Origin: Lysobacter sp. FW306-1B-D06B
GTDB taxonomy: Bacteria; Pseudomonadota; Gammaproteobacteria; Xanthomonadales; Xanthomonadaceae
NCBI RefSeq assembly: GCF_038446665.1
Contig: NZ_CP151802.1
Coordinates: forward strand, 2,728,001-2,792,000
DNA length: 64,000 bases
Direction: 5' to 3'
A model generated the notes under the pieces. That model was not told where the DNA came from. It did not search any database and was given only the letters and a program-made list of their open reading frames with translations. Position 1 is the first letter of the stretch. The number at the start of each line of letters is the position of its first letter. Made by a program: the position numbers and the translations under genes. Below are positions 35,966 through 57,079 of the stretch, one piece after another.

Positions 35966-37654
35966 TCACGCCATCGCCAGCACGATCACGGTGCCCCAGG
36001 TGGTCAGGAGCACGTGCGCGACGGCCACCGACCCGGTATAGCCGATCACCGCGATCGGGCTGTCGGACTTCTCCTGCAGCGCCGCGAGGGCGGCGGTGAA
36101 GGTCTGCGCGCCGGAGATCGCACCCAGCAGCAGCAACGGGTCGATCCGCAGCACGCGCCGGCCGAACCAGAGCCCCAGCAGCAGCGGCGTCATCGTGACC
36201 AGCACGCCGCCGAAGAACAGCCCCACGCCCGACTCGCGCAGGGCCAGCAGGAAATGCGGCCCCGCACCCAGGCCGACCATCGAGACGAAGGCCGCCAGCC
36301 CGAAGGATTGCATCAGCTTCACAGCGGCGTCGGGGATGCGGCCGAACAGCGGGCGACGCGCGCGGACGTGGCCGACCACCAGCCCCGCCAGCAGCGCGCC
36401 GACGCTGGTGCCGATGCTGACGTCGATGCGCCCCACCGGCACGACCGCCAGCACGCCGAACACCGCGCCCAGGAAGATCGCGAAGCCCACGACGATGAAG
36501 TCGGTGGCGTCGCTGGCGCGCACGATCTCGCCCAGTTCGCCGGCCGCGCGCAGTACCGCCTGCTCCGGGCCGACCAGTTGCACCATGTCGCCGCGTTCGA
36601 TCGTCGTGCCGGTGCCGATGGGGATTTGCTGCCCGTTGCGCAGGATGCGCCGCAGGAAGACGGCGCGGACCTCGTCGCACTGCGCGATCTGCGCCAGCGT
36701 GTGCCCGATCCAGCGCGCCTTGCACACGAAGACCTCGTGCGCGGCCATCGGAATGTCGAGCAGGTCGGCGTCATCCACTTCACGTCCGCGCTCTCCCAGG
36801 ATGCCCACCAGCACCTCGCGCCGGCCGCCGACGGCCACCACGTCGCCGGCGTGTACGATGGTGGAGGCATCGGCGTCCAGCAGTACGTCGTCGCGTCGCA
36901 GGCGATACACGAACAGCCGCGCGCCTTCGATCAGGCGTTCGGCGGCGGCAATGGCCAGGCCGGCCATGGGCGCGTCGGCGGGCACGCGGTAGGCGCGTGT
37001 CTCGAAGGGTTGCCAGGCCGATGCGACGCCGGCGCGCTGACGCACGATGCCGTAACGGGCCTCCAGCGCGATCGCGTGCGCCTTCAGGTCGATTCGCAGC
37101 AGCCACGGCCCGATCACGGTGCAGGTCAGGATCACGCCGAGCGCGCCGGACACGTAGCACAGCGCGTCGCCGACGCCGACATGCGCCACGTAGCGGGCCT
37201 TCGTTTCCGCGTCGATGGGCAAGGCCTGGATGGCCTCGGTCGCCGTGCCCATCGCAGGCGATTCGGTCAGTGCCCCCGACAGCATGCCGGCGGCCAGCCC
37301 GGGATCCAGCTGCAGCGCGCTCGCCACGCCCCACGCGACCAGCAACCCCACGGTCGGCATGAACACGGCGAGCGCCGCGAATCGCCAACCGTCGCCTTTC
37401 ATCGCCGAGAGGAAGCGCGGACCGACTTCATAGCCGATGCCGAACAGGAACAGCAGGAACACCAGCGACTTCGCGGTCGCCGAGACGGGCACCTCGAACG
37501 CCCAGCCCAGCAGCATGCCGGCCAGCAGCGATCCGGTGACGCCGCCGAGCACGAAACCTCGCACGCGCACGCCGCCCACGGCGTAGCCGATGCCCAGCGC
37601 GAGGTACACCGCCAGTTCCGGATAGCGCGACAGGATCGACGAGAACCACTCCAT
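35966..37654 (-). CDS. AspT-type aspartate:alanine exchanger family transporter (copy 1)
   Basis: AspT-family carriers exchange an amino acid for its decarboxylation product. This 562-residue copy has the family plan: about five membrane helices, a central pair of TrkA-C (RCK-C) regulatory domains (about residues 200-370, with PMAGLAIAAAERL and GHTLAQIAQCDEVRAV), then a second membrane half. The duplicated membrane motif is seen as FLFLFGIGYEVGPRFL and SMVGLGAGPHFL. It is last in the decarboxylase-AspT-OprD-AspT set, 30 bp after oprD. It is only moderately similar to copy 2, so the two may carry different substrates. Confidence 0.87.
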   Translation of the reverse strand: MEWFSSILSRYPELAVYLALGIGYAVGGVRVRGFVLGGVTGSLLAGMLLGWAFEVPVSATAKSLVFLLFLFGIGYEVGPRFLSAMKGDGWRFAALAVFMPTVGLLVAWGVASALQLDPGLAAGMLSGALTESPAMGTATEAIQALPIDAETKARYVAHVGVGDALCYVSGALGVILTCTVIGPWLLRIDLKAHAIALEARYGIVRQRAGVASAWQPFETRAYRVPADAPMAGLAIAAAERLIEGARLFVYRLRRDDVLLDADASTIVHAGDVVAVGGRREVLVGILGERGREVDDADLLDIPMAAHEVFVCKARWIGHTLAQIAQCDEVRAVFLRRILRNGQQIPIGTGTTIERGDMVQLVGPEQAVLRAAGELGEIVRASDATDFIVVGFAIFLGAVFGVLAVVPVGRIDVSIGTSVGALLAGLVVGHVRARRPLFGRIPDAAVKLMQSFGLAAFVSMVGLGAGPHFLLALRESGVGLFFGGVLVTMTPLLLGLWFGRRVLRIDPLLLLGAISGAQTFTAALAALQEKSDSPIAVIGYTGSVAVAHVLLTTWGTVIVLAMA

Positions 37655-37684
37655 TCGGCCTCCCCCGGTCGCGCGGCGGCGCCC

Positions 37685-39064
37685 TTACAGCTTCGGTGGG
37701 TCGTAGAACACCATCAGGCGGACGTCGTCCAGGTCGGACTCGACGGGTCCTTCCTGTCGCACGTGCGCGTAGCGCAGGCGGATCAGCAGGCCCTGCAGGA
37801 AGCCATCGCCGATGGCCCACTGGAAGTTGAAGTCGTACTCGTCCTTGGCGTATTCGGTCGGCGATTGCGGATCGGAGCCGTCCACGTACAGCGCGTAGAC
37901 GCTGGCGCCCTTGATCGTCTGGAAGGTGTAGCCGGCGCGCAGCAGCCAGGCGTCCTCGCCGTCGCGGTTGAAATCCTCGACCTGGACGCTGGTGTAACCG
38001 GGGTAACCGCTCCAGGGGTTCTGCATGTTGGTGTCGCCGCCGGCGCGCGTGTAAGCCGCGGTGAACAGCGCGCCGCCGTAGCCCAGTTCGGCCTTCGCGC
38101 CCCACTGGTCTGAGGAGAAGTCCGCGCCGCGCAACAGGTCGTCGCCGGCGCTCGACTGGTCGGAGTACTGCAACGCGAACTGCAGCTTCAGCTTCTCGGC
38201 CAGCGGAATTCCATAGCGGGCCTCGGTGTAGAAGATCTGGATGATGTCATCGCTGTAGTAGCCGATCGCACCCACCGAGAAGGCGCCCTTCTTGAAGTTG
38301 GCGCCCAGCGCGTAGACGCCGCGCTCCACGCCGTCCGGCGCGCCCGCGTCCTGCGCCATGGAGACGAACTCGTCGGAGTTGCGCTCCTTGATCTCATCGA
38401 AATACCCGCCGCCCACGCGCCACTCCGGACGCCCTTCGTCGCCGCCGTAGAGGCCCTGCAGGGTGATGGCCTGGAAGGTATTAGGCGTCATGCGCGCGTC
38501 GTTGCGGTTGATGTAGGGCGTGTCGATGCCGCGGCGGCCCAGGCTCAGCCGGGTGTCGTCGTTGATGAGGAATTCGCCGTAGACCTCGCCCAGCACGGTG
38601 TAGCCTTCCTGGCCGGGTTTCAGCAGCAGCGTCCCGTCTTTATCCTCGGGGCCGTAAAGCTTCTGCGAGGTATAGCCCGTCGCGCCGAAGGCGAACCGCT
38701 CGCGGAAGTAGCCGGTCTTGAAGCCGACCGAGCCACCCAGCGCCCACGCTTCGCTTTCGGTGTTGTCGTACTTGTCGCGACCCAGGTAGAACGTGCGCGC
38801 CTGCACGTCCCATTTGGTGTCCTGCCACGCCTTGCGGCGCGTCTCGCGTATCCACGCCGCGCGGTCGCGCGGGGCGAACGCCTCGTCGAGCGGCGTCTGC
38901 CCCTGTTCGGTGGACGACGGCTCCGCCTCGACGTACTCGTCGTCTTCCACGCTGGCAGGCGGCGCGGCCTGCGTCTGCGCATGCGCGGAGCAGGCCAATG
39001 CGATCGACAGCAGCCCACAGGTCGCCATGGGAGCTGCGCGCGCGACAAGACGGTAAGCCTCCAT
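37685..39064 (-). CDS. OprD-family outer-membrane porin
   Basis: OprD-type porins admit basic amino acids, peptides and other small substrates. The 459-residue product has a signal peptide ending SAHAQ, an acidic linker, and a barrel with family segments SVGFKTGYFRERFAFG, LGRRGIDTPYINRNDARMTPNTFQA and YTFQTIKGASVYALYV. The C-terminus is PPKL rather than a terminal aromatic, which is a little unusual. It lies 9 bp after aspT copy 2 and 30 bp before copy 1, which suggests it supplies the substrate of the decarboxylase system. Confidence 0.85.
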   Translation of the reverse strand: MEAYRLVARAAPMATCGLLSIALACSAHAQTQAAPPASVEDDEYVEAEPSSTEQGQTPLDEAFAPRDRAAWIRETRRKAWQDTKWDVQARTFYLGRDKYDNTESEAWALGGSVGFKTGYFRERFAFGATGYTSQKLYGPEDKDGTLLLKPGQEGYTVLGEVYGEFLINDDTRLSLGRRGIDTPYINRNDARMTPNTFQAITLQGLYGGDEGRPEWRVGGGYFDEIKERNSDEFVSMAQDAGAPDGVERGVYALGANFKKGAFSVGAIGYYSDDIIQIFYTEARYGIPLAEKLKLQFALQYSDQSSAGDDLLRGADFSSDQWGAKAELGYGGALFTAAYTRAGGDTNMQNPWSGYPGYTSVQVEDFNRDGEDAWLLRAGYTFQTIKGASVYALYVDGSDPQSPTEYAKDEYDFNFQWAIGDGFLQGLLIRLRYAHVRQEGPVESDLDDVRLMVFYDPPKL

Positions 39065-39073
39065 GGCTCCTCC

Positions 39074-40774
39074 TTATTGCGAAAGCACCATCGCGAAGTA
39101 ACCGAACACGGTGTACAGCACGCCGGACACCGCGTAGCCCACGGGGAATCCGACCCACGGCACCGTGCTGTCGATCTCCTTCGCCGCCTCGCGTGCGGGG
39201 CCGGAGTGCGAACGCGATCCCGCCACGCCGCCCATCAGTACGGCCGGGTTGATCTTGAAGACGTGGTAGCCGATCGCCCAGGTGATGAACGGTGGAATGG
39301 TGCTGGCGATGAAGCCGGCGAGGAAGATCTTCACCGCGATCGAACCGGTGAGCTGCTCCAGCAGCGTCGCGCCGGCGTTAATGCCGACGATGGCGATGAA
39401 GGTCACCAGCCCCAGGTCTTCCAGGATGTTGCGCGCGGCGTTGGGCGTGCTGCCGAAATAGCGCAGGCGCGAAACCACCGACGACACCAGGATGCCCGAC
39501 AGCAGCAACCCGCCCGCGTTGCCCAGGCCCACGGAGAAATCGCCGACGGGCACATTGATCTTGCCCACCAGCAGGCCCAGCACCATGCCCGCGGACAGCG
39601 TGAGCAGGTCGGTCGAGGTGCTCGGCCGCGCGACCTTGCCCAGCAGCCCGGCGGCCTTGTCGACAGCGCTCCTCAGGCCCGTCACGAAGATCACGTCCAG
39701 GCGCTTGAGCGGCGTATCGGCGCCGAACGGCAGCGGCTCGCCGGAGCGTTCCACGCGCGTCACCTGCACCTGGCCGGCGAAGTCCTCCGCCGCCAGCGCA
39801 CGCAGCGGCTGGCCGTCGAACTTCTTCTCCGTCACGAGGATCTCGGCCTGGTCGAGCGGCACGCTCAAGGCCTTCGGGTCGTCGACTTCGGCGCCGATGA
39901 GCCCCAGGTTGTCGGTGAGGTCCTGCAGACGTCCGCCCAGTGCGATGACATCGCCCTGCTGCAGTACGAGGTCCGGCGCGGCGCCGAGCACCTCATCGCC
40001 GCGCCGCACGTTGGCGACGCGATACTGCGGGTACGTCTTGCGCAGCTGGGCGATGCTCTGGCCCGCGGTCTGCGCATTGTCCAGCCGGTAGGCGCGCAGG
40101 CCGCCGCCACGGTAACCGGTGAGCGCGGCGTCATCGACGTTGCGCACGCCGTGCTTGAGTTCGTACTCGCGCGCGGCCTTGCGCGCGTCCACGCCCCACC
40201 AGCGCGGCAGGTATTTGCAGATCAGGATGATGCCGACCGTGCCCCAGATGTAGGTCACGCCGTAGCCGAGGGCGATCATGCCCGACACTTGTTCTGCCGT
40301 GACGCCCGCAGGCAGCTTGTACGCGCCTTGCTCCACGGCCATCTCGGCGGTGCCGATGGCGGCCGACATCGTCTGCGAGCCGGCCAGGATGCCGCCCGCC
40401 GCGCCGGCCGGCAGGGCGAGCATCTTCGAGGCGATCACCACCAGCACCAGGCCGAGGACGGCGCAGATGACCGCAAGGATGGTGAAGGTGATGCCGTCCT
40501 TCTTCAGGCTGTTGAAGAACGCCGGGCCCACGCGCAGGCCCACGCCGTACATGAAGAGGTAGTAGAAGAGCGACTTGGCGAAGTTGTCCAGCTGCAGCTT
40601 CACGCCGTAAGTGGACGCCCAGGTTGCCAGCGCAGCACCCACCACCACGGCCGCGGCGACCATGCCCAGGCCGTAGCCTTTGACCGAGAACTTTCCGACC
40701 AGCACCGCCATGCCGACGGTGAAGAACAGCAGGATGTACGGATTGTCGGCGAGGAACTGAAAGAACCCTTGCAT
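39074..40774 (-). CDS. AspT-type aspartate:alanine exchanger family transporter (copy 2)
   Basis: The 566-residue protein has the same two-half membrane architecture as copy 1. MYGVGLRVGPAFFNSLKKDG is in the first half and GINAGATLLEQL in the second, around central TrkA-C domains (about residues 210-375). AGGILAGSQTMSAAIGTAEMA is the typical AspT glycine-rich helix. Electrogenic exchange by this family, coupled to a cytoplasmic decarboxylase, generates proton motive force. It starts 30 bp after the decarboxylase gene. The substrate is inferred from that partner, not known. Confidence 0.9.
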   Translation of the reverse strand: MQGFFQFLADNPYILLFFTVGMAVLVGKFSVKGYGLGMVAAAVVVGAALATWASTYGVKLQLDNFAKSLFYYLFMYGVGLRVGPAFFNSLKKDGITFTILAVICAVLGLVLVVIASKMLALPAGAAGGILAGSQTMSAAIGTAEMAVEQGAYKLPAGVTAEQVSGMIALGYGVTYIWGTVGIILICKYLPRWWGVDARKAAREYELKHGVRNVDDAALTGYRGGGLRAYRLDNAQTAGQSIAQLRKTYPQYRVANVRRGDEVLGAAPDLVLQQGDVIALGGRLQDLTDNLGLIGAEVDDPKALSVPLDQAEILVTEKKFDGQPLRALAAEDFAGQVQVTRVERSGEPLPFGADTPLKRLDVIFVTGLRSAVDKAAGLLGKVARPSTSTDLLTLSAGMVLGLLVGKINVPVGDFSVGLGNAGGLLLSGILVSSVVSRLRYFGSTPNAARNILEDLGLVTFIAIVGINAGATLLEQLTGSIAVKIFLAGFIASTIPPFITWAIGYHVFKINPAVLMGGVAGSRSHSGPAREAAKEIDSTVPWVGFPVGYAVSGVLYTVFGYFAMVLSQ

Positions 40775-40804
40775 GGCGGCAGTCTCCTTGCGTCCTTGAG
40801 TCGG

Positions 40805-43561
40805 TCAGTGCAGCGAGCCGGCGCGACGGCCGGCCAGTGCAGACGGCTTGATCAGCTTGATGCCCTGCGCGGCGTGGTAGCCGTGGATCTCCTTGACGTC
40901 CAGCTTGCGCATGAACGCGATCGTGTCGGCACCGATGACCTGGCCCGGCACCATGATCGGGAACCCGGGCGGGTAGGGAATGACGAAGTTCGCCGACACC
41001 ATTTCCGGGCCGTCGCGCAGACGCTTGTCGATGTCCTCGCTGCCCAGTCGCACGTACTCGCAGTTTTCTTCGTCGTAGGCCATGAAGAACGCGGGCCGCA
41101 TGTGGCCTTCGTTGCTGGCGCCGTCGGGCTGGTCGCGGAACGCGTCGTGGAAACGGCTGAAGTTCGGCAGGTCCGGAACGTCGGTCATCAACGCGCGGAC
41201 ACGGTCGTCGAACACCGTCCGGTCGAGCGCGCCGCCCTGCGACAGGCGCGATTCGATCTCACGCGACAGGTCGGCCAGCGCCTTGATCAGCAGCGCCGCA
41301 TCGCTGTGCGTGTTGTTGATGTTGGTCTGCACCAGGACGCTGTTGCGCGAGGTCTTGTTGATCTGGATGTCGAAGCGTTCGGCGAGCAGCCCCTTGAACT
41401 GCGTGCCATCGAACCCGGCCGCGCCGCAGATCAGCGTCAGGCGCGTGGGATCGAGCGCGAACTCGTCGTGATCCAGTGCCTCGATCGCGTCCAGCCAGCT
41501 CGAATCCGGCGGGCCGTAATCGCGCAGTCCCGACTCGCGGAACTCCGCGGGGATCATGTCCTCCGGCGTGGCCACGCGGAAGTATTTCGAGATCAGCGGG
41601 TGCGTGTTGATCGCACGGCGGATCTTCAGCGCCAGGTCGGTCATGCGCAGCGTGAGGCCGTAGCCCTCCAGTTCCATCTGGCGCCGCGCAAGGTCGAGGG
41701 ACGCGATCAGCTGCAGGTTCGGCGAGGTCGAGGTGTGCGCGAAGAACGCCTCCTCGAAGGGGCCTTCCACGTGATGGAAGTCCTCGTCCCACACCAGCAT
41801 CATCGAGCCCTGGCGGAACGCCGACATCGACTTGTGCGTGGAATTGGTCTGGTACACGCGGATGCGTACGCGGTCCGGGTCCGGCAGCAGGCGTTCGTCC
41901 AGCAGCGCCGGATCGGCCGGGTCGAACTCGCCGCGCTTGGCCTTCCACGCGGCGTATTCGTCCCGGTAGGCCTGGCTGTGGTAACGCTGCGTGAGCACGG
42001 CGGCCGCGCCCATCGCGGTGCGGCGGCGGTGCATCGGGTTGAAGCGGGCGAAACCGAACCAGGCTTCGTCCCACAGGAAGATCAGGTCGGGCTTGATCGC
42101 CAGGCATTCCTCCATCACCCGGCGCGGGTTGTACATGTGGCCGTCGAAGGTGCAGTTGGTCATGTCGACGACCTTGACGCGGTCCAGCTTGCCGCCGGCG
42201 GCGCAGTCCAGCAGCGCCTGCTTGATCGTGCGCAACGGCACCGCGCCGTACATCGAGTACTGCGTCAGCGGGAAGGCCTCGACGTAGTAAGGCTGCGCGC
42301 CGCTCAACACGAATCCGTAGTGGTGCGACTTGTGGCAGTTGCGGTCGACGATGACGATGTCGCCCGGCTTGCACACCGCCTGCACGACGATCTTGTTGGA
42401 CGTGGAGGTGCCGTTGGTGCCCAGGTACGCGCGCTTGGCGCCGAACGCACGCGCCACGGCATTCTGTGCGCGTTTGATGTTGCCGGTGGGCTCCAGCAGG
42501 CTGTCGAGCCCGCCGGTGGTGGCGGAGGACTCGGCGAACAGAATGTTGGTGCCGTAGAAGTGGCCCATGTCGCGGATCCAGTTGGATCCGAAGATGGACT
42601 TGCCGCGTGCGATGGGCAGCGCATGGAACGTACCGATGGGCCGCATCGCGTACTTCTTGAGGTTGTCGAAGTAGGGCGTTTCGTAGCGGTCGTTGACGCC
42701 GTCGATGATCGACAGATGGATCTCCATCGGCTCTTCGACGTGGTGGAACACGCGCCGCAGCGGCGCGGCCTCGTCGCTGCCGGCGACCGATTCGGGCGCG
42801 CGATCGGTCAGCAGGTACAGGTCCAGTTCGGGCCGCGAGTTCTTGATCGTGCGGGCCAACGTGAGCGACATCGTGCCCGGCCGCACGTCGTCGGCATCCA
42901 GTGACACGTGCCGGGAGACGAAGTCCTTGAGATCGGGGATGTCGTGATGGGAGGAGAATCCGAAGCCGTCGACGAGCACCACGGCCTGCAGGTCGTGGTT
43001 GACGATCATCGCCAGCGCAGCGTCTTCGAAGCTGCCGGCATGCACGACGGCATAGTGGAAGGGATCTTCCGCTCGCCGCATGCGCCGCATTTCGTCCTTG
43101 GAGCGCAACCACTGCGCGGGATCGGCCGGCGTGACCACCAGTACTTCGAAGTAGGGCTTGTCCTGCACGCCGAGGATGTCGGGCGGCAGCGCATCGAGCA
43201 CGTTGCGGTCCAGATCGTCGTCCAGCTCCCAGGCGTTCTCGTCGCGCCGGTAATCGCCCGACAGGATCGCCGAGGACACCTTCTGCACCAGCCGCGCGAA
43301 CAGGGCGGCATCGCCGTCGGCCAGCGCCTGGCGCAGCGCGGCCAGCAGCCGTTCGCCAGGGTAGGCCCAGCATTGTTCAAGCCGCATGGCTTCAGCGAAC
43401 TGCTTGGTGCAACGCTCGCGGCCTTGCGCGGCATTGGCCCCGCCACCGGCCCACGCGCGAGCAGCGGCGTTGAGGTGGCGCCACTGGTCGGCGCGCAGCG
43501 AAGCGGCGACAAGAACGTTGGCAAGTCGCGGCGATTCTTTCTGGGAAGGATCCTGGTTCAT
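40805..43561 (-). CDS. Orn/Lys/Arg-type amino-acid decarboxylase with N-terminal extension
   Basis: A PLP enzyme of the bacterial Orn/Lys/Arg decarboxylase family. At 918 residues it is about 170-200 longer than inducible lysine or arginine decarboxylases. The extra length is an N-terminal helical region (about residues 1-125) before the wing domain (HYAVVHAGSFEDAALAMIVNHDLQAVVLVDGF). The core shows GTNGTSTSNKIVVQAV, IVDRNCHKSHHYG, LIFLWDEAWFGFARF and the PLP-lysine loop TNSTHKSMSAFRQGSMM. The C-terminal domain ends with FVIPYPPGFPIMVPG. Substrate cannot be read from sequence. It leads an operon with two AspT-type exchangers and an OprD porin. Confidence 0.9.
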   Translation of the reverse strand: MNQDPSQKESPRLANVLVAASLRADQWRHLNAAARAWAGGGANAAQGRERCTKQFAEAMRLEQCWAYPGERLLAALRQALADGDAALFARLVQKVSSAILSGDYRRDENAWELDDDLDRNVLDALPPDILGVQDKPYFEVLVVTPADPAQWLRSKDEMRRMRRAEDPFHYAVVHAGSFEDAALAMIVNHDLQAVVLVDGFGFSSHHDIPDLKDFVSRHVSLDADDVRPGTMSLTLARTIKNSRPELDLYLLTDRAPESVAGSDEAAPLRRVFHHVEEPMEIHLSIIDGVNDRYETPYFDNLKKYAMRPIGTFHALPIARGKSIFGSNWIRDMGHFYGTNILFAESSATTGGLDSLLEPTGNIKRAQNAVARAFGAKRAYLGTNGTSTSNKIVVQAVCKPGDIVIVDRNCHKSHHYGFVLSGAQPYYVEAFPLTQYSMYGAVPLRTIKQALLDCAAGGKLDRVKVVDMTNCTFDGHMYNPRRVMEECLAIKPDLIFLWDEAWFGFARFNPMHRRRTAMGAAAVLTQRYHSQAYRDEYAAWKAKRGEFDPADPALLDERLLPDPDRVRIRVYQTNSTHKSMSAFRQGSMMLVWDEDFHHVEGPFEEAFFAHTSTSPNLQLIASLDLARRQMELEGYGLTLRMTDLALKIRRAINTHPLISKYFRVATPEDMIPAEFRESGLRDYGPPDSSWLDAIEALDHDEFALDPTRLTLICGAAGFDGTQFKGLLAERFDIQINKTSRNSVLVQTNINNTHSDAALLIKALADLSREIESRLSQGGALDRTVFDDRVRALMTDVPDLPNFSRFHDAFRDQPDGASNEGHMRPAFFMAYDEENCEYVRLGSEDIDKRLRDGPEMVSANFVIPYPPGFPIMVPGQVIGADTIAFMRKLDVKEIHGYHAAQGIKLIKPSALAGRRAGSLH

Positions 43562-43697
43562 ACCCGTGCTCCGTACGCATGGCGGCGACAAGCTTCTGGC
43601 AGTGCAGGCCAGGGCCGGGCGGCTCACGTGGAGCACGACGGCTCAGGCTAGTGAAAGCAATCCTCGCCAAAGCCTATGCCCGGAAAAATGCAGGGAA

Positions 43698-43717
43698 AAT
43701 TGGCCCTTGGCCCAACA
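43698..43717. promoter_or_regulatory. Shared 20-bp sequence upstream of the decarboxylase operon
   Basis: AATTGGCCCTTGGCCCAACA contains TTGGCCC twice in tandem and an imperfect dyad (TTGG...CCAA). The identical 20 bp recur at 51740-51759 in the same orientation. This copy lies 137 bp before the decarboxylase start codon, in the 197-bp gap that breaks the minus-strand gene series. Confidence 0.7.
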
Positions 43718-43758
43718 ACCGCCGTGCGTGTGAAGGCGCTGCGGCCGCCTCCCGTCGG

Positions 43759-45405
43759 CTAACCGCCCTGCGTGGGCCCGTCCCAATGCGCTTTGGGCAC
43801 GATTTTTGGCGACTCCGGGTCGGCTTCGTAGTTGGGCGACATGATCTGCACGCCGGCTTCGTTGAAGGCGTCCTGGATGTTGGCGTGCAGCGTGCTGCGT
43901 GCGATCAGGCGCTGCTGCACATCGGGAATGCGCGCGCGCAGCACGTACTCCACGTAGAAGTCGGACAACGCCGCCTGGGCGACGAACGGGGCCGGCGTGG
44001 ATTGCACGCCCGGCGTGCGCTGCGCGGCATCGAGCAGCAGCCGGTGCACCTGCCGCCACGGCGCGTCGTAGCCGATGGTCACCTTCGCTTCGATCCACAT
44101 GCCCGGGCCATCGGGATTGCGCGAGAAGTTCTGCAACTTGCCGCCGAGCACGACGTTGTTCGGATAGCTCACTTCCACGCCCAGCGGCGTGCGCAGGCGC
44201 GTGGTGAACAGGCCGATCTGCTGCACGGTGCCTTCGGTGTCGTCGATGCGGATCACGTCGCCGGGCGTCATCGTGCGCGAATAAAGCAGGGTCAGGCCGC
44301 CCGCCGCCTGGCTGACGATGCTGGAGGCGCCCAGCGAGATCATCAGGCCGACGAACACGCTCAGGCCCTTGAACGCATCCGTTTCGGCGCCAGGCAGGTA
44401 CGGGTAGGCCATCGCCAGCGCGAACAGCCAGATCAGCGCGGTGAAGATCTTGCGCGTGGGTTCGGCCAGTTGCTGGTCGATCCCCAGCAACTGGAAGCGC
44501 CCGGCTTCCACGCCGTGGAAGGTCACGCGCAGCGCCTGCGACACCAGTCGGGCGAGGATGAAAATGAGGAACGCGCTGAACAGCCCCGGCAGCGCGGAAA
44601 CGATGGCATTGCCCAGGCTTACGGTGCGCGAGGTGATCCAGCCCGTCATCGCCGCCGCCCACGGCTGCGTGTAAGGGAAGCGGCCGAAGGCGAAACGCAG
44701 CCATTCTTCGAAGGTGAGGGCGACGATCAGCCACATCGCCAATCGCGCCAGCCCGCGCGCACTGGCGATGAGCCCGGCGAGCATCTGCCGTGCGGATTCG
44801 CTCTTGAGTTGCGCCAGCCGCGCGACGACCCAGGCGTCGACCCGATGGCGCACGCGCAGCACCAGCCGGTACAACAGCCACAGCAGCGCGATGGCGGCCA
44901 CGGTGGCCACCGCCACCCAGAGCAGGCCCTGCAGAACGCGTTGCGGCATGCGGGCCTGTTCGCCCGCGCGCACCGCGGTGTCCAGGCGCGTGATCGTCTG
45001 CGCGCGCAGCTGATCCAGGCTCTGGCCGCCCAGCACGTCGCGGTCGGCCGGCACGATCACCGTGACCAGTTGTCCCGACAGGAGGATCGCCACGCCCTGC
45101 GGCACCGCCTGGTAGCCGACCTTCGCCATGCCGGGTTCATCGACGATGCGCGCGATGTTGGCCTGCGCCACCTCCGCGCGCCGCGTCGGTGAGTTGCCGA
45201 AGAACGGCACGCGGAAGGTCACGATGTCGCGGTTGAAGTAGCGCAGCGTCGCCGGTGCGTGGGCAGGCGGGGCGGCGGCGGCCGGTGGCGGTGCGGGCTC
45301 GGGGGCGGGCTGGCGCGCACTCGCGGCGCAGGCGAACGCGGCCAGGGCGATGCCGAGCATCGTCCCCGCGAGATGCCGCATCACGTGGCGGTGGCCGGCC
45401 TCCAT
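43759..45405 (-). CDS. MscS-family channel with periplasmic N-terminal domain
   Basis: The 548-residue protein has a cleavable signal (GTMLGIALAAFACAASA), a proline/alanine-rich linker and a periplasmic domain of about 110 residues. Four to five membrane helices and an MscS core follow: VFVGLMISLGASSIVSQAAGGLTLLYSRTMTPGDVIRIDDTEGTVQQIGLFTTRL, then VEVSYPNN. This is a larger MscS type than the 341-residue one at 17475. A start at 45405 is used; 45381 (MRHLAGTM) is an alternative. It begins 9 bp after the beta-barrel gene, within the multi-gene stress set. Confidence 0.9.
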   Translation of the reverse strand: MEAGHRHVMRHLAGTMLGIALAAFACAASARQPAPEPAPPPAAAAPPAHAPATLRYFNRDIVTFRVPFFGNSPTRRAEVAQANIARIVDEPGMAKVGYQAVPQGVAILLSGQLVTVIVPADRDVLGGQSLDQLRAQTITRLDTAVRAGEQARMPQRVLQGLLWVAVATVAAIALLWLLYRLVLRVRHRVDAWVVARLAQLKSESARQMLAGLIASARGLARLAMWLIVALTFEEWLRFAFGRFPYTQPWAAAMTGWITSRTVSLGNAIVSALPGLFSAFLIFILARLVSQALRVTFHGVEAGRFQLLGIDQQLAEPTRKIFTALIWLFALAMAYPYLPGAETDAFKGLSVFVGLMISLGASSIVSQAAGGLTLLYSRTMTPGDVIRIDDTEGTVQQIGLFTTRLRTPLGVEVSYPNNVVLGGKLQNFSRNPDGPGMWIEAKVTIGYDAPWRQVHRLLLDAAQRTPGVQSTPAPFVAQAALSDFYVEYVLRARIPDVQQRLIARSTLHANIQDAFNEAGVQIMSPNYEADPESPKIVPKAHWDGPTQGG

Positions 45406-45414
45406 GGGCTGTCG

Positions 45415-46230
45415 TCAGAACCGGTAGACGGCGCCAAGGCGAATGCCGCTGTCGGTGAAGTCGAGGTTGCCGATGAAGTCATCGCGCCGCGAGTCGGCTT
45501 CGATCCTGCGCACGGTGTAGTCCAGCGACAAACCGGCCCGCTCCCACGGGAACCACTCCACGCCCAGGCGGCCGAAGGTGATGTCCGCATCGATGTTGTC
45601 GATGTCGGCCGAGAAATAGCCCACGTCCGCCGAGAACCGCCAGTCGTCCAGCGGTGCCCAGCGCCAGCTGCCGCCGATGCTGGGGGCGGGCAGGTCGGCG
45701 TCGACGTCCTCGCGGATCGCGCCGTCGATGCGGTTGCCCTGTGCGTCCACCTGCAGCGATAGCTCCAGGTTCATCCGGTACCAGACCAGGCCGACGCGCG
45801 GGCCCAGCGCCCAGCGGTCATTGTTCACGCCCCACCAGACGTAGTAGAGGTCGTACGCGTCCAGGTCCACTTCGGCGCGCAGCGTGCTCTGCGCCTCGAA
45901 CGTCGTGTCCTCGAAGGTGATCGACCGGTTGGTCGTGCGCGAGGCCGACGCGTCGTCCTGGTAGTAGGACAGGCCGAACTCGTGGTTGTCGAACGGCCGC
46001 CAGGTGACGCCGACGACCGCGACGGTATTGCTTTCGTCCAGGCCGAGGTCGCGCTGTAGGTCGATGCGCGTGCCCGACTCGGTCTCGCCGTCGGCCCGCA
46101 CTTCGGTGTCGAACTCGGTGATGTAGCCGCCGATGCGGGCGCTGAAGGTGTCCAGCGGCTCGATCGCGCGGGCCTGCATCGAGGTCATCGCCAGCAGGAC
46201 TGCCAGGGGAAGGGCAATGCGGGTGTTCAT
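45415..46230 (-). CDS. Outer-membrane beta-barrel protein of unknown function
   Basis: The 271-residue product has a signal peptide (LPLAVLLAMTSMQARA) and then alternating amphipathic strands: TVAVVGVTWRPFDNHEFGLSYY, DLYYVWWGVNNDRWALGPRVGLVWYRM, ITFGRLGVEWFPWERAGLSLDY. It ends RLGAVYRF with the terminal aromatic of BAM substrates. About 10-12 strands are likely. I do not recognise the family. A GGGAGG site precedes the ATG. It lies between the K+ channel and the MscS genes in a closely spaced series. Confidence 0.8.
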   Translation of the reverse strand: MNTRIALPLAVLLAMTSMQARAIEPLDTFSARIGGYITEFDTEVRADGETESGTRIDLQRDLGLDESNTVAVVGVTWRPFDNHEFGLSYYQDDASASRTTNRSITFEDTTFEAQSTLRAEVDLDAYDLYYVWWGVNNDRWALGPRVGLVWYRMNLELSLQVDAQGNRIDGAIREDVDADLPAPSIGGSWRWAPLDDWRFSADVGYFSADIDNIDADITFGRLGVEWFPWERAGLSLDYTVRRIEADSRRDDFIGNLDFTDSGIRLGAVYRF

Positions 46231-46256
46231 GGTGCCTCCCATCGACATTGTGTGGT

Positions 46257-46931
46257 TCAACGTGACTGTGCCGCCGTGCGCAGCCCGACCAGGCGCGCGA
46301 CCATGATCGCCAGGTAGAGCTGCCCGATGATGGCTTCGAAGACCGCCAACCCCCTCATCACCGGCGTGGCCGGCGCGAAGTCGCCGTAGCCTAGCGTCGC
46401 CAATGTGACGAAGCTGAAATAAATCGCGTCTCCCATGGAGACTCCACGGGGCGGCACCAGTCCGCCGGCCAACAGCGAGCCCGGGTCCAGCCGCGCCACC
46501 GCCGCATAGACCACGCCCCAGCACACGCCGATCAGCAGGTAGGCGCTGAGCGCCGCGTACAGGCGTTCGGCCCGGATGCGCACGCTGGCAAGGGAATAGC
46601 GCACCGCGCGGTAGGCCGCGATCAGCGCGATCGCGCCCCACGCCATCGCCGCCGCCACCTGCAGGGCGGTGCCGGGCAGGGTGGTGGAGATCCAGCGCAG
46701 GGCCAGGGCCACGGCGATCAGGCCCCACAGCACGCGGCGCTCGCCCAGCAGCAGGGAGGGGAAGACCGCGGCGACCAGGTTGACCGCCAGGAAGGCTTCC
46801 ATGAGCGTGCGCCCGAACCGCATCGCCTCCAGCAACGGGCCGATGGCGATGGTCAGCAGCAGCGAGAAGAACAGCATCGCGTAACGGTGCTGGCGCAATG
46901 AGGACGGGCTGCGGGAGATCGGCGTGTCCAT
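46257..46931 (-). CDS. Two-TM-pore potassium channel family protein
   Basis: The 224-residue membrane protein has five or six helices and a pore loop FSFVTLATLGYGDFAPAT near residue 180, the canonical TLGYGD selectivity filter of K+ channels. The N-terminal part (FFSLLLTIAIGPLLEAM, FLAVNLVAAVFPSLLLG) is a compact voltage-sensor-like bundle without the usual arginine ladder. No RCK domain is attached. It starts 2 bp after the Ca2+/H+ antiporter gene, so the two ion-handling genes are co-transcribed. Confidence 0.88.
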   Translation of the reverse strand: MDTPISRSPSSLRQHRYAMLFFSLLLTIAIGPLLEAMRFGRTLMEAFLAVNLVAAVFPSLLLGERRVLWGLIAVALALRWISTTLPGTALQVAAAMAWGAIALIAAYRAVRYSLASVRIRAERLYAALSAYLLIGVCWGVVYAAVARLDPGSLLAGGLVPPRGVSMGDAIYFSFVTLATLGYGDFAPATPVMRGLAVFEAIIGQLYLAIMVARLVGLRTAAQSR

Positions 46932-46933
46932 CC

Positions 46934-48031
46934 TCAGCCCGACGCATCCGGCACATAGAAGAACACCGCCGCCAGGATCAGGTACACCGCCAGCAGCTGC
47001 ACGCCGCGCAGCCAGTCGGTGCGTCCGTCGCTGGTGATCTGCCCGGTGATGAGCACCGAGAACACGATCGTCAGCACCAGCCCCGGCCCGAACACCAGCC
47101 CCATCGGATGCGGCCCCATCACGTAGCTCAGCAGCACCAGCAGCGGCGCCACCAGCAGCGCGAGCTGCACGCTGGCGCCCATCACGATGGACATCGCCAG
47201 GTCCATGCGGTTCTGGCGCGCGGAGACGATCGCCGTGGCCTGTTCGGCCGCGCCGCCGATCACCGCCAGCACGAACACGCCGGTGAAGGCGTCCGACAGC
47301 CCCAGTTCCTCGCTCGCCGGTTCCACCGCGCCGACCAGGATCTCGCTCAGCCAGATGATGCCCAGGCTCACCGCCGCCAAGACGATGACCGCCTTCTTCG
47401 GGCTCCACAACGGGCCGTGATGGGCGTGGGCCGCGTCTGCGTGCGATGACGACGCCGTATCGGCGGCCTGCGCCGCCTTGCGCGCGTTGGCGGCGCGACC
47501 GGCGGCCAGCGTATAGCCCACGTTGGCGACGTAGACCAGCAGCAGCGCCACTGCGATCCAGGCGCTGATGGAGTTCAGCGCTTCCCCGGCGTCGGGCACG
47601 ATGGCGCCGTAGCCGGCGGGCATGATCAGCGCGATCACCGCCAGCGTCAGCATCGTCGCCTGCGTGCGCGCGGAGCGGGCGTCGTAACGCTGTTCACCAT
47701 GGCGCACACCGCCCACCACCATCGCCACGCCGAGCACGAACAGGATGTTGCCGATGATCGTGCCGGCGATGGACGCCTTGACCATGTCGTGCAGGCCGCC
47801 GCGCAGCGCCGCCAGCGCGATGATCAGCTCGGCCGCGTTGCCGAAGGTCGCGTTGAGCAGCCCGCCGATGCCCGGCCCGAGACGCACGGCAAGCGAGCCG
47901 GTGGCCTGCGCCATCAGCGAGGCCAGCGGGATGATGCCGGCACCGGCGACGAGGAAGATCAGCAGCGAGCGCTCCGGAGCGAAGTGCTCCAATGCGATCG
48001 CGATCGGCATGAGGATGAGCAGCCATTTCAT
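46934..48031 (-). CDS. chaA: Calcium/proton antiporter (ChaA/Cax family)
   Basis: The 365-residue protein has eleven membrane helices and the duplicated CaCA-family signature: GLLNATFGNAAELIIALAALRGG in the first half and GGAAEQATAIVSARQNRMDLAMSI in the second. A His-rich cytoplasmic loop (SSSHADAAHAHHGPLW) lies between the halves. The length equals E. coli ChaA (366), which exports Ca2+, Na+ or K+ in exchange for protons. It starts 13 bp after the outer-membrane factor gene and is followed by the K+ channel after 2 bp. Confidence 0.9.
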   Translation of the reverse strand: MKWLLILMPIAIALEHFAPERSLLIFLVAGAGIIPLASLMAQATGSLAVRLGPGIGGLLNATFGNAAELIIALAALRGGLHDMVKASIAGTIIGNILFVLGVAMVVGGVRHGEQRYDARSARTQATMLTLAVIALIMPAGYGAIVPDAGEALNSISAWIAVALLLVYVANVGYTLAAGRAANARKAAQAADTASSSHADAAHAHHGPLWSPKKAVIVLAAVSLGIIWLSEILVGAVEPASEELGLSDAFTGVFVLAVIGGAAEQATAIVSARQNRMDLAMSIVMGASVQLALLVAPLLVLLSYVMGPHPMGLVFGPGLVLTIVFSVLITGQITSDGRTDWLRGVQLLAVYLILAAVFFYVPDASG

Positions 48032-48044
48032 CTCGACCGACTCC

Positions 48045-49517
48045 TCACTGGGTGGTGGCGGGTGTGGCGGACTCGTTCGGTAGCGCTTCGTTCGCGGCCA
48101 CGTCCTGCATCTGACCGAAGCTGCCGCCCAGGGCGAGGTGCAGGTCGACGCGCCGGCTCAGGCGTTCGCGTTGCACGCTCAGCAGGGCGATCTCGGCCGA
48201 CCAGGCCGCGAGCTGGCGCTGGCTCACCGCGCGCAGATCGGAGCGGCCGATGCGATAGGCCGATTCCTCCATGCGCGTGATGTCTCGGTTGGCCTGCGTG
48301 GCCTCACTCAGGATGCGTTCGCGCTCGGCCAGCACGCGTTCGGCGTTGAGCGCGTCTTCGACTTCGTCCAGCGCGATGAGCGCACGGCGCGCGTAGTCGG
48401 CCACGGCTTCCTTCTGTTCGGCGGTGCGAAGGTGCACCTGGCCCGTCAGCGCACCACCGGTGTAGATCGGCGCGATCACGGTGGCGGAGGTGCTGCTGAT
48501 GGTCTTTTCCAGATCCTGGCGCGTCTCGACCACCTTGTTGCTGATGCGCCCGTACCCGGCGGAAAGCGAAAGCGTGGGCAGCATCGCCGCCTTCGCTTCG
48601 CCGACGCGGTCGAACGCGGCCGCGACACGGCGCTGCGCGGCGATCATGTCGGGACGACGGTCCAGCACGTCCATCGGAATCCCCACCGGCACCGGCGCAG
48701 GGAAGGGCGTCAACGTGCCGCGCGCGGCCAGCGTCGCGCCCGGATACCGGCCCAGCAGCAGCTCCAGCGCACGCAAGGCCTGGCGATGCGCGAGCTCCAT
48801 CTGCTGCTGCGCGTCCTGGTACGTGGCGAGGTTGGCCTGGGAGATCATGACCTCGCTCTGCGTGCCCGCACCGACGCGCACCCGATCGCCCGACAGATCG
48901 ACCAGCCGCTGGCCGGCATCGGCCATCTCGCCGGCGAGCGCGACCTGCATGCGCGTTTCGTTCACCACGAACCACGCGCGTGCCACGCTCGCGGCCAGCG
49001 ACTGTTGCGCATAGCGGTAATCGGCGCTGCTGGCATCGCGCGCCGCGCGGGCGGCGTTGCGCGCGTAGCGCATGCGGCCCCACAGGTCGATCTCCCAGCT
49101 CAGGCGCAGCATCACGCCGCTGAGCAGGGGCACCAGGTCGGAGATCGGCTTGGAGCCGCCGCGCCCGATCAGCCCGATCGCCGGCTTGAGGTTGGCCTCG
49201 GCCATGTCGACCTGCGCGTTCGCCTGCTCCACGCGCGCGGCCGCCATGATCAGGTCCGGGTTCTTCGCCAGCGCCTCGTGCACGAGCTGGGTGAGCGTGG
49301 GATCGTTGAAGCTCGCCAGCCAGTCCTCGTCGATGCGCGCGGCGCTGACCTGCGCGGACCAGTTCGGCGGAATGGCGACCTGGCCCAGCGCCTGTTCTCG
49401 CACCTCATCGCCGGTGGGCTCGGGCAATACCGCGCAGCCGGCGGCGAGCGTGAGCACGCAGGCGAGCCCCAGCGGAATCGCCTTGGTCGCGCAGTGGCTC
49501 GCCGGGCGCGGGCTCAT
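48045..49517 (-). CDS. Outer-membrane efflux lipoprotein (TolC/NodT family)
   Basis: The 490-residue protein has a lipobox LTLAAGC near residue 28, so it is an outer-membrane lipoprotein. Two outer-membrane-efflux repeats follow, with helical pairs such as TQLVHEALAKNPDLIMAAARVEQANAQVDMAEANLKP and LDRRPDMIAAQRRVAAAFDRVGEAKAAMLPTLSLSAGYG. It is the exit duct of a tripartite pump. It starts 7 bp after the HlyD gene. No inner-membrane pump gene (MFS, RND or ABC) is next to it; the partner is a DUF3302 protein. Confidence 0.93.
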   Translation of the reverse strand: MSPRPASHCATKAIPLGLACVLTLAAGCAVLPEPTGDEVREQALGQVAIPPNWSAQVSAARIDEDWLASFNDPTLTQLVHEALAKNPDLIMAAARVEQANAQVDMAEANLKPAIGLIGRGGSKPISDLVPLLSGVMLRLSWEIDLWGRMRYARNAARAARDASSADYRYAQQSLAASVARAWFVVNETRMQVALAGEMADAGQRLVDLSGDRVRVGAGTQSEVMISQANLATYQDAQQQMELAHRQALRALELLLGRYPGATLAARGTLTPFPAPVPVGIPMDVLDRRPDMIAAQRRVAAAFDRVGEAKAAMLPTLSLSAGYGRISNKVVETRQDLEKTISSTSATVIAPIYTGGALTGQVHLRTAEQKEAVADYARRALIALDEVEDALNAERVLAERERILSEATQANRDITRMEESAYRIGRSDLRAVSQRQLAAWSAEIALLSVQRERLSRRVDLHLALGGSFGQMQDVAANEALPNESATPATTQ

Positions 49518-49524
49518 CGTCGCC

Positions 49525-50706
49525 TCAGTGCAGTTTCAGCACGAGCCAGTCGAGCTTGCTGCCCACCCGCAGGATCACCTTGCGGATGATGTGCAGCAGC
49601 TTGCCGCGTTCGGTGTAGATCGCGCCCTGGCCCTGCGCGCCCATCGCGATGAAGGTGTCGGCGTCGCGCCCGGTCGGACGCAGGCGCACGGCGATGCGGC
49701 CCAGCGGAAGCGGCGTCGTTCCGCTCTGCGGAATCATGCCGCTGATCGGCAGCTGGCCCGTGGCCGAAGCCCAGACGATCGAATCCACCGCGCATTTGAT
49801 GATGCGGTTGGGGTGCGTCTTGAGCGCGATCTCCGCCTCGTTGCCGGGGGCGACGTTGGCCAGTTCGTTCTGCGAGAACATGGCCAGCACGATCTGCTCC
49901 TTCTCCACGAAGCTCATCACCGGCGTGAGCGGCAGGCTGGCGGCGAAGGAACCTTCACGCAGTTGCAGGTTGATGACGGTGCCGTCGGCCGGCGCGTAGA
50001 CCGTGGTCTGCTCCAGCTGCCAGCGCGCCTGGATGATCTGCGCCTTGAGCTGTTCCACCGCCGCGCGCGCCTGCGCCACTTCCGACAGCTGACCACCGGG
50101 CGTCTTCGCCGAGATCTTCTGCTGCACCTGCGCCATCTGCGCGGTGGTGGAGGTCAGTTCCGAACGCAGGCTGGCCGCTTCGGTCTGCGCCTGCTCGTGA
50201 TCGAACTTGGAGCCGGCGCCGGTGGAGGCGAGTTCGGCGGTCTGGCGTTCGCGCTTGATCGCCAGGGCGAGACGCGAATTGAGCGCATCGCGCGTGGAGC
50301 TGGCCTGGCGCAGTTGCTCGTTCAGTTCACGCTGGTACGCCTGCGCGGTGTCGAGCTTGGCCTCCATCTCCGGCAGCTTGGCCTCCAGCGCCGCCAGCTC
50401 CTGCTGGAAGGGCACCGGGTCGATGCGGAACAGCACCTCGCCCTTCTTCACCGGGCGATTGGGCTCCAGCGGAACGGCGATCACGCGCCCGCTCACGCGC
50501 GGCACCACCTGCACCACGTAGTTGATCACGCGCACGTCGGAGGAGGAGGGCGCGACCACGTTGAGGATCAGGATCATCGCCGTCAGCGCGAAGATCGGCA
50601 GCGAGACCACGATGATCTGCGAGACGAAATTCCACGGCAGCCACTTGAACTTGAAGAAGATCAGCCAGACGAAGAACGAGTAGATCAGCAGCAGGATGAT
50701 CTCCAT
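49525..50706 (-). CDS. HlyD-family periplasmic adaptor (YibH/YiaV-like)
   Basis: The 393-residue protein has two N-terminal membrane helices (ILLLIYSFFVWLIFF and VSQIIVVSLPIFALTAMILI) and a barrel-sandwich half motif (VVQVVPRVSGRVIAVPLEPNRPVKKGEVLFRIDP). A coiled coil (about residues 90-210) and the second lipoyl half ending VYAPADGTVINLQLREGSFA complete the adaptor. The double N-terminal helix and the DUF3302 partner match E. coli YiaV/YibH. It lies 3 bp after the DUF3302 gene and 7 bp before the outer-membrane factor. Confidence 0.92.
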   Translation of the reverse strand: MEIILLLIYSFFVWLIFFKFKWLPWNFVSQIIVVSLPIFALTAMILILNVVAPSSSDVRVINYVVQVVPRVSGRVIAVPLEPNRPVKKGEVLFRIDPVPFQQELAALEAKLPEMEAKLDTAQAYQRELNEQLRQASSTRDALNSRLALAIKRERQTAELASTGAGSKFDHEQAQTEAASLRSELTSTTAQMAQVQQKISAKTPGGQLSEVAQARAAVEQLKAQIIQARWQLEQTTVYAPADGTVINLQLREGSFAASLPLTPVMSFVEKEQIVLAMFSQNELANVAPGNEAEIALKTHPNRIIKCAVDSIVWASATGQLPISGMIPQSGTTPLPLGRIAVRLRPTGRDADTFIAMGAQGQGAIYTERGKLLHIIRKVILRVGSKLDWLVLKLH

Positions 50707-50709
50707 GAT

Positions 50710-51297
50710 TCACTCCTCGTCGCCGGCCACAGCGGGCCGTTGCGGCTTCGCGTTGGCATTGCCCATCGCCATCGCCATCTCCAGCGATCGGATGCGGCGG
50801 CGCAATTCATCCACTTCGGCCTGCGATTCGGTGGCGCGAGCATCCACGACGGGCGCCTGCGGTTCCGGTGGCGCGGCGCGTTCAGCATCCTGCAGCGGCG
50901 TGAGCGCATCGCCGCCGTGGCCGTGGCGGTCGTCGACGTCGGTTCCGTAGGCCATGCGGTGCAGCACCGGCTTGGTGTAGGCCCACAGCCAGGCCAGGGG
51001 CCACAGCAGGCCGCCGAAGAACAGCGACAGCAGGCACAGCGTCTTGATTGCGTCCAACTGCGGATGGCGGCGTTTCTCGGCGATCTTCTCCGGCAGGATG
51101 TGCACGATCCAGAACACCGCGATCAGCACCACCGGCACGATGATCAGCGCCAGCCAGGCGACGACATTGGCGGCGGCGTCGAGGGCGTCGCCGCTCAACA
51201 GCGAGGCGTGCGCCAGGGACGGCGCCGTCGCAAGCGCAAGCAGGACGACATGCGGCGCGCAAGCGCGCCCGCGGACATGGCGGTTATCCGGATTCAT
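50710..51297 (-). CDS. DUF3302 inner-membrane protein (YiaW/YibI-like)
   Basis: The 195-residue protein has a signal-like start and two conserved membrane helices around HILPEKIAEKRRHPQLDAIKTLCLLSLFFGGLLWPLAWLWAYTKPV, the DUF3302 signature. A cytoplasmic coiled tail of about 80 residues follows (EVDELRRRIRSLEMAMAMG). E. coli encodes YiaW and YibI next to HlyD proteins in the same way; the function is unknown. Its ATG overlaps the TGA of the receiver gene upstream (ATGA). Confidence 0.88.
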   Translation of the reverse strand: MNPDNRHVRGRACAPHVVLLALATAPSLAHASLLSGDALDAAANVVAWLALIIVPVVLIAVFWIVHILPEKIAEKRRHPQLDAIKTLCLLSLFFGGLLWPLAWLWAYTKPVLHRMAYGTDVDDRHGHGGDALTPLQDAERAAPPEPQAPVVDARATESQAEVDELRRRIRSLEMAMAMGNANAKPQRPAVAGDEE

Positions 51298-51704
51298 GGC
51301 TCTTTCCCCGCGTCGCGGGGCGCCACGCCGCCGCGATGTTCCACCGCTCCCAGGATCGCGCCGATCAGCGACTCGTCGTCCACCGGCTTGCACAGGTAGG
51401 CCTCGGCGCCTCCGTTGAGCGCACGCTGGCGGCCCTCGGTCGTGTCGTTTCCGGTCAGCACCACCACGGGCACGCTGAGCTTGCGTTGCTGGAGCGCGTC
51501 CTGCACGTCGAAGCCGCTCAGCCCCGGCATGTGAAGATCCAGGACCACGCAGTCGGGCGCGCTGTCTTGCGCGTGGCGCAGGAATTCGTTGCCTGATGCA
51601 TAGACCAGGACCTCGAATCCGGCGGACCGAAGCAGGCGGTGCAGCGCACGGCGCACGTCTTCTTCGTCATCCACCACGGCAATGGTGAGCGATCGTCCGA
51701 GCAT
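51294..51704 (-). CDS. Single-domain response regulator
   Basis: The 136-residue protein is a receiver domain with no output domain: acidic pocket VVDDEEDVRRAL, phospho-acceptor in CVVLDLHMPGLSG, Thr in VLTGNDT and Lys in YLCKPVDDE. It probably passes phosphate to, or competes with, the FixJ-type regulator encoded divergently with the kinase at 51938. It is the first gene of the minus-strand set DUF3302-HlyD-OMF-ChaA-K+ channel-barrel-MscS. Its start codon lies 36 bp after the repeated 20-bp sequence. Confidence 0.9.
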   Translation of the reverse strand: MLGRSLTIAVVDDEEDVRRALHRLLRSAGFEVLVYASGNEFLRHAQDSAPDCVVLDLHMPGLSGFDVQDALQQRKLSVPVVVLTGNDTTEGRQRALNGGAEAYLCKPVDDESLIGAILGAVEHRGGVAPRDAGKEP

Positions 51705-56968: not shown

Positions 56969-57079
56969 CGGAAGTCCTTCGGTCCGAGAAGCGCGCACAT
57001 GCGTGCTCGACGGCCAGCCTCCTTTATGCCTCCCCGCGGGCGGCGCGGGAATCATACGGAGGTTTGCATCCGCGCCCGG

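Follow-up and report, generated by a model that had tools for sequence, protein, structure and literature searches.

We analysed a window of 64,000 nucleotides from Lysobacter sp. FW306-1B-D06B (contig NZ_CP151802.1, positions 2,728,001 to 2,792,000; host genome of 4,235,567 bases in one contig), in which 12 minus-strand genes run from a receiver gene, REC1 (51,704), through an exchanger gene, AspT1 (35,966). The run encodes export and ion-transport proteins followed by a long pyridoxal phosphate (PLP) decarboxylase of the ornithine/lysine/arginine (OKR) fold, two AspT-family exchangers and an OprD-family porin. An initial annotation had described a same-strand run with spacing mostly of 0–30 base pairs (bp), and all the genes it named indeed lie on the minus strand at the coordinates below; the gaps, taken 5′ to 3′ along the run, are −4, 3, 7, 13, 2, 26, 9, 197, 30, 9 and 30 bp, i.e. 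all at most 30 bp except the 197 bp between the MscS gene and the decarboxylase gene. The genes of the run, two operator-like sites and the divergent regulatory genes are:

51294..51704, minus: REC1, single receiver domain protein (Pfam Response_reg)
50710..51297, minus: DUF3302 small membrane protein (Pfam PF11742)
49525..50706, minus: HlyD-type periplasmic adaptor (Pfam/NCBIfam)
48045..49517, minus: outer-membrane efflux protein (OMF), NodT type (Pfam OEP; TIGR01845 above cut-off)
46934..48031, minus: CAX, Ca2+/H+ exchanger (TIGR00378 above cut-off)
46257..46931, minus: two-pore-loop type ion channel, K+ channel-like (Pfam Ion_trans_2)
45415..46230, minus: small outer-membrane beta-barrel (Pfam OMP_b-brl, 23.5 bits, below the cut-off of 28.7)
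43759..45405, minus: MscS-type channel (Pfam MS_channel domains)
40805..43561, minus: long OKR-fold PLP decarboxylase of 918 amino acids, Rv2531c-like (PF01276; similarity to PDB 9n0n/9n0o; catalytic Lys, His and Asp retained)
39074..40774, minus: AspT2, AspT-family exchanger adjoining the decarboxylase (PF06826; TIGR03802 398.3 bits, below cut-off)
37685..39064, minus: OprD-family porin (PF03573)
35966..37654, minus: AspT1, second AspT-family exchanger (PF06826; TIGR03802 532.6 bits, below the cut-off of 546.95)
51742..51757, minus: operator-like site TTGGGCCAAGGGCCAA (minus-strand reading) in the divergent gap between REC1 and the kinase gene, kept before the REC1 operons of relatives
43700..43715, minus: operator-like site, the identical 16-mer TTGGGCCAAGGGCCAA, upstream of the decarboxylase unit in the 197-bp gap
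51932..54133, plus: PAS histidine kinase, divergent from REC1, candidate sensor (Pfam PAS, HisKA, HATPase_c)
54139..54762, plus: FixJ-like response regulator, candidate activator (Pfam Response_reg and GerE, a LuxR-type helix-turn-helix)

As the 197-bp gap bears an operator-like site of its own, we prefer to read the run as two units within a wider regulon: unit 1 comprises REC1, DUF3302, HlyD, OMF, CAX, the K+ channel, the barrel and MscS, and unit 2 comprises the decarboxylase, AspT2, OprD and AspT1. We rejected one single operon because of this gap with its site and because relatives carry the units apart. The initial annotation had proposed one module of functionally linked genes; that the genes belong together is borne out by their recurrence, the shared site and the tie to AspT, but they form two units and not one operon. 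To that annotation we add the shared site, a third target of it, the kinase/FixJ-like pair, and two genes downstream, encoding a 180-amino-acid protein and an alternative oxidase (AOX).

The decarboxylase is the sole PF01276 gene of its genome (major domain at 220 bits against a cut-off of 27) and is 100% identical to that of Lysobacter sp. MMG2. Its closest solved relative is 9n0n/9n0o, with 743 bits over residues 12–913, near full length; 9N0O is listed as Rv2531c, a putative decarboxylase of unclarified activity (PMC12910592). The catalytic Lys, His and Asp are retained in an alignment with AdiA, LdcI and SpeF of E. coli K-12, and the residues concerned (K576, H409 and D497, assigned as PLP lysine, stacking His and pyridine-nitrogen Asp from this alignment) are invariant across 34 homologues. 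Other motifs have changed: PGHxGG reads LPxARG, and the Glu of the VxEK motif of LdcI (VEKTG) and SpeF (PEKCD) is replaced by Asn (INKTS); Asn734 is invariant and Arg738 almost so among the 34 homologues. We take the Glu of LdcI and SpeF to face the substrate side chain. Its replacement by Asn speaks against lysine or ornithine as the substrate and less against arginine, since AdiA itself has Thr at that position. The initial label of an Orn/Lys/Arg-type decarboxylase agrees with the PF01276 family, but the enzyme is a long, Rv2531c-related form, and an ordinary Orn/Lys/Arg decarboxylase is doubtful given this similarity and the altered motifs.

The decarboxylase and AspT across genomes

Two window genes carry PF06826, the family of the exchanger in the AspD-AspT system; an Enterococcus AspT with AspD beside it was the reference for the AspT alignment. 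In AspT, the Arg R76 is reported to contact the substrate. We compared neighbours within 10 kb of the decarboxylase between loci whose enzyme is at least 55% identical to the window protein (group A, 47 loci) and loci at 50% or less (group B, 18 loci). The loci came from one genome-contig pattern scan (24 loci, favouring close relatives), from genome draws and from plasmid records (6 of 392 used); duplicates were removed (L001, L026, L038, L039, L042, L044, L048, L049, L050, L051, L066 and L071), and a draft locus with broken frames (L024) was omitted from some tallies and counted by pieces in this comparison. The loci are a related, non-random sample, and p values are generous.

AspT stands near the decarboxylase in 47 of 47 group A loci and in 0 of 18 group B loci. 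It follows the decarboxylase on the same strand at a distance of at most 400 bp in 45 of the 47, and in the remaining two (L014 and L069) tblastn maps place it next to the decarboxylase. Counted by genome, PF06826 occurs in 34/34 of group A and 0/14 of group B; by our reading of the tables, 30 of the 34 have all their matches at the cluster, and G467, G1198, G1202 and G1259 have some on another contig. Judged by this linkage, the core of the module is the decarboxylase together with an AspT-type exchanger.

Other members of the neighbourhood were found near part of the group A enzymes and near none of the 18 in group B: OprD in 30 of 47 loci, HlyD in 26, DUF3302 in 23, OMF in 21, the barrel in 15, MscS in 14, DUF3300 in 12, the K+ channel in 11, CAX and aspartate 4-decarboxylase (AspD) in 10 each, SulP and DUF2950 in 8 each, and PPK2 in 6. 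Receiver-type matches were not confined to group A (REC1 30/47 vs. 1/18; regulator 31/47 vs. 2/18, the two models cross-matching). Of 4 Verrucomicrobiota loci, 3 have DUF3302 and HlyD in the vicinity of the decarboxylase, as do 5 of 10 loci of the alphaproteobacterial type and none of the 18 controls. The lack of conserved co-occurrence, which the initial annotation had named as grounds for giving up its proposal, was not what this comparison across genomes returned: the genes do co-occur. Group B enzymes have neighbours of their own, namely an ATP-grasp protein (PRK06524) in 18/18, a C45 acyltransferase in 17/18 and a carbon-nitrogen hydrolase in 12/18 (e.g. L030 and L078), along with γ-aminobutyrate transaminase in 8/18 and succinate-semialdehyde dehydrogenase in 5/18; the last two occur in 2/47 and 1/47 of group A.

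The long enzyme is scattered. Among 247 Xanthomonadaceae genomes it occurs in 20, PF06826 in 20 and both in 19; the enzyme of G564 is group B-like (47%) and AspT is missing there, and G570 (L132, C9:59499-62940) has two adjacent AspT genes with neither decarboxylase nor site. At class level, 10 of 369 genomes carry it (>500 bits), two at an identity of at least 80%; at phylum level, 17 of 349 do with an E value of at most 1e-50, seven of these at an identity of no less than 55%. It was found in 7 of 79 genomes of the Rokubacteria (phylum of G615) and in 1 of 240 of the phylum of G613, this one being the genome on which the search was centred. Loci titled Verrucomicrobia or Thermodesulfobacteriota have decarboxylases ~75% identical to those of Lysobacter, which equals some values within Lysobacter. 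Because identity across phyla is that high, we infer that the module, patchy across phyla, has been transferred horizontally, with mis-binned metagenome-assembled genomes a possible source of some cases.

Of the 34 group A genomes, 8 (seven Rokubacteria and G1165) have an AspD match (TIGR03801) above cut-off. AspD also appears in the gene orders of two named records: SulP-aspT-decarboxylase-aspT-porin-AspD in Ensifer canadensis, and decarboxylase-aspT-aspD, preceded by carbonic anhydrase and being the single AspT place on its replicon, in Rhizobium sp. T1473. Orders without AspD are decarboxylase-aspT-aspT-cax (Rhodobacter sp. CZR27) and decarboxylase-aspT-porin (Phyllobacterium). About 5 kb past the Rhizobium sp. 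T1473 cluster lies a gene of the HdeA/HdeB family (L075:21891-22184). Tetragenococcus AspT together with AspD is reported to generate proton motive force (PMC9508256). Given that AspD shares clusters with the long enzyme and that an AspT-AspD aspartate system is known (PMC9508256), an acidic substrate (aspartate or glutamate) seems most likely.

The shared site, its candidate targets and FixK/FNR-type boxes

The identical 16-mer precedes both window units, and on this basis the two appear to be co-regulated. Allowing at most three mismatches, the window holds four matches against 1.66 expected, of which the two exact ones precede the two units. Of 22 Xanthomonadaceae loci, 14 have a strict site in the 600 bp upstream of the decarboxylase gene, and 200 shuffle sets produced none; in some loci the site stands before REC1, which there precedes the decarboxylase.

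The pattern TDGGNCCWWNGGCCAA occurs at three places in the 4.24-Mb genome: two before the window units and a third, at 3,716,388, before an OmpA/DUF5666-like gene, DUF3300 and DUF2950 (L112, G000 C1:3713175-3716537). Beside this third site (L112:10519-12012) is a second histidine kinase, similar to the window kinase in its N-terminus. Sixteen related genomes gave 46 pattern rows, or 44 distinct places, and a reversed-pattern control gave 7 places. By our reading of the maps, 36 of the 44 precede module genes, also where these are scattered: decarboxylase units, REC1 units and OmpA-like/DUF3300/DUF2950 units, and further a CAX-channel unit (G012, G604), SulP-PPK2 (G562, G546) and AspT1 alone (G467). 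The units are far apart in G411, G562 and others, each keeping the same site, and in G600 the site stands before REC1-DUF3302-HlyD-OMF though the long decarboxylase is missing. A 12-mer search found no shared site in the Verrucomicrobiota and Rokubacteria loci, and the idea of one there was rejected.

The bases flanking the site, which lie outside the search pattern, are also constrained. Across 39 module sites, which come from related genomes and are not independent, the first base after the 16-mer is T in 39/39 and the second in 34/39; a TA follows 22–25 bases past the site in 28 and at 15–21 bases in none, and TAnnnT is found at 23–24 in 20. This arrangement looks like an activator site near −43. 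The divergent kinase and its neighbour, a regulator with receiver and LuxR-type helix-turn-helix, have by domain search the gene content of a FixLJ-type two-component system, and this candidate pair probably activates both units through TTGGGCCAAGGGCCAA. Close to this pair, at 56591-59895, another PAS kinase and a single receiver, both on the minus strand, flank a FixJ-like frame.

Boxes of the FixK/FNR type (TTGAYnnnnRTCAA) mark the module in one other genus, which belongs to the window's phylum but to another class and is presumably alphaproteobacterial. Its four genomes (L053-L056) hold 19 boxes, where 50 shuffles average 0.2 with a maximum of 1, and boxes occur in all four loci in the SulP/decarboxylase gap, at the AspT1 start and in the gap between c20 (next to PPK2) and DUF3302. 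Group A loci as a whole hold 24 boxes in 945,026 bases, group B loci 1 in 318,010. Low-oxygen control of the module is thereby suggested for that one genus only. The whole window has one strict match (35,239-35,252), upstream of AOX and not at the module promoters. The genes flanking the run on this side are:

35285..35827, minus: 180-amino-acid protein, possible member (HD-type motif by eye only)
34,517-35,170: alternative oxidase, AOX (PF01786)
33,749-34,501, plus: Crp/Fnr-type regulator gene beside AOX

A Pfam scan gave no family match for the 180-amino-acid protein; a homologue closes the REC1...MscS run in G411. The perfect FNR-type box sits between this gene and AOX. Since AOX is rare near the decarboxylase (1 of 47 group A loci) and bears this box of its own, we rejected it as a module member; AOX and the Crp/Fnr-type regulator look like a separate low-oxygen unit.

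Explanations of the locus

Gene content, conserved linkage, the shared site and the intact catalytic residues are read from the sequence itself. On balance we lean towards a stress regulon of several operons that has this locus at its centre and a decarboxylation-antiport module as its core. For the scheme that follows we infer the substrate, the direction and charge of the exchange, the identity of the activator and the physiological trigger. The OprD porin would admit an amino acid; the AspT-type exchanger would trade it for its decarboxylation product; and the long OKR-fold decarboxylase would remove CO2 inside the cell, consuming a proton. Proton motive force and a higher internal pH would result without respiration, provided that the exchange is, like that of AspT, electrogenic. 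Unit 1 (DUF3302-HlyD-OMF, the Ca2+/H+ exchanger, the K+ channel, the barrel and MscS) may take care of envelope export and of ion balance under the same conditions, and the PAS-kinase/FixJ-like pair would switch on both units via TTGGGCCAAGGGCCAA, in a setting of low-oxygen, energy or acid stress. As to the export part, the Pfam/NCBIfam scan found no RND, MFS or ABC inner-membrane component near HlyD-OMF, only DUF3302 preceding them, and for want of that component we rejected a single pump of these kinds.

Several observations weigh against this interpretation. Both exchangers score below the TIGR03802 equivalog cut-off (532.6 and 398.3 vs. 546.95 bits), and AspD has no match in the window genome or in any of 18 Xanthomonadaceae genomes. 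Source records label the homologues ‘arginine decarboxylase’, and known OKR enzymes act on basic amino acids. CAX, SulP, PPK2, AspD and DUF2950 are, each taken alone, not significant against group B (p 0.05–0.18). Eight of 22 Xanthomonadaceae loci lack a strict site in the 600 bp ahead of the decarboxylase, 8 of 44 pattern places lie elsewhere (seven of them under long open reading frames), and outside Xanthomonadaceae the operator pattern is absent save for single two-mismatch matches. No FixK/FNR-type box is present at the window decarboxylase promoter, nor do any of the other six alphaproteobacterial-type loci carry FixK-type boxes. A sigma-70 consensus scan found 0 promoters against 1.1 expected, a result to be expected where an activator takes the place of the −35 element, but also where there is no promoter.

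A broader version of the same regulon, which we put forward tentatively, would span several phyla: a new acidic-amino-acid OKR decarboxylase and AspT may conserve energy at low oxygen, with PPK2, SulP, DUF3302-HlyD-OMF, ion channels and the nodule-induced DUF3300-DUF2950 pair added. In Xanthomonadaceae the FixJ-like regulator would drive it via a new operator, for which the alphaproteobacterial-type genus would have FixK-type control instead.

Of the alternatives, the one that survives best, though we hold it to be unlikely, is that the regulon answers another cue (e.g. envelope, osmotic or metal stress), and that the decarboxylase and AspT export or interconvert a metabolite such as an osmolyte and do not build proton motive force. 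MscS, the K+ channel, CAX and the tripartite-type export parts would suit such a role. Against it speak the boxes of FixK/FNR type found in one genus, the pairing of PPK2 with SulP behind the same site in G562 and G546, and the HdeA/B-family gene near one locus. That last gene, near one Rhizobium locus, is the sole feature that suggests an acid role.

Rather unlikely in our judgement is a basic substrate, arginine being the likeliest, with acid resistance in the manner of AdiA/AdiC or AaxABC and an AspT-family protein as the antiporter. The OKR fold and Pfam family, the source labels, and the known link of OprD porins to basic amino acids are in keeping with it, as is the fact that AdiA likewise lacks an acidic residue at the LdcI/SpeF Glu position, so that Asn is compatible with arginine. 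Yet the Glu of the lysine and ornithine enzymes is Asn and PGHxGG is LPxARG in the window protein, 10 of 47 loci have AspD within the cluster, and no gene for an APC-family exchanger or antiporter was found near the decarboxylase among the open reading frames scanned at 34.5–59.9 kb. Characterised AspT relatives, moreover, carry Asp, Ala, Glu or succinate (in part from PMC9508256).

It is improbable that the two units have separate roles (an efflux/ion-homeostasis operon and an unrelated amino-acid operon) and became neighbours by drift in one family, as the 197-bp gap, the distance between units in G411, G562 and others and the 24 of 47 decarboxylase loci without DUF3302 might suggest, for separated units still keep the same site, and DUF3302 with HlyD stands by the decarboxylase in Verrucomicrobiota and alphaproteobacterial-type loci and in no control, as counted above.

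Significance and comparison with known systems

Should the regulon view favoured here hold, an energy-conserving decarboxylation module would be added for aerobic soil bacteria. A testable function and a tie to AspT are gained for a large family of decarboxylases, of which the one member with a solved structure is of unclarified activity (PMC12910592); the uncharacterised DUF3302, DUF3300 and DUF2950 are placed in one regulon with a defined site; and through that site the regulator and its signal become open to direct tests. We found no description of the system or the site in the literature searched, which mostly excludes subscription journals.

The locus resembles the AspD-AspT system of lactic acid bacteria in combining an AspT-family exchanger with an intracellular PLP decarboxylase and in the predicted generation of proton motive force by exchange; it differs in having a long OKR-fold enzyme in place of AspD and in the addition of a porin, another exchanger and an ion/efflux unit. 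Rv2531c (9n0n, 9n0o) matches the window decarboxylase at 743 bits over nearly its full length, whereas linkage to AspT is a trait of the window's subfamily. AdiA-AdiC, CadA-CadB, GadB-GadC and the chlamydial AaxABC likewise pair a decarboxylase with an exchanger, AaxABC with a porin as well; their exchangers are of the APC family, unlike the AspT-family proteins here. The PAS kinase and FixJ-like regulator, and the boxes of FixK/FNR type that the module bears in another genus, resemble features of the FixLJ/FixK and FNR regulons, but the module promoters of the window bear a different site and no such box. In root-nodule bacteria, DUF3300 and DUF2950 are induced and always found together, with no functional hint in that work (PMC4653623); the same pair is the third target of the site in the window genome, and here it joins a regulon. 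The parts are therefore of known kinds; their pairing, the regulon and the site are, as far as we have searched, new.

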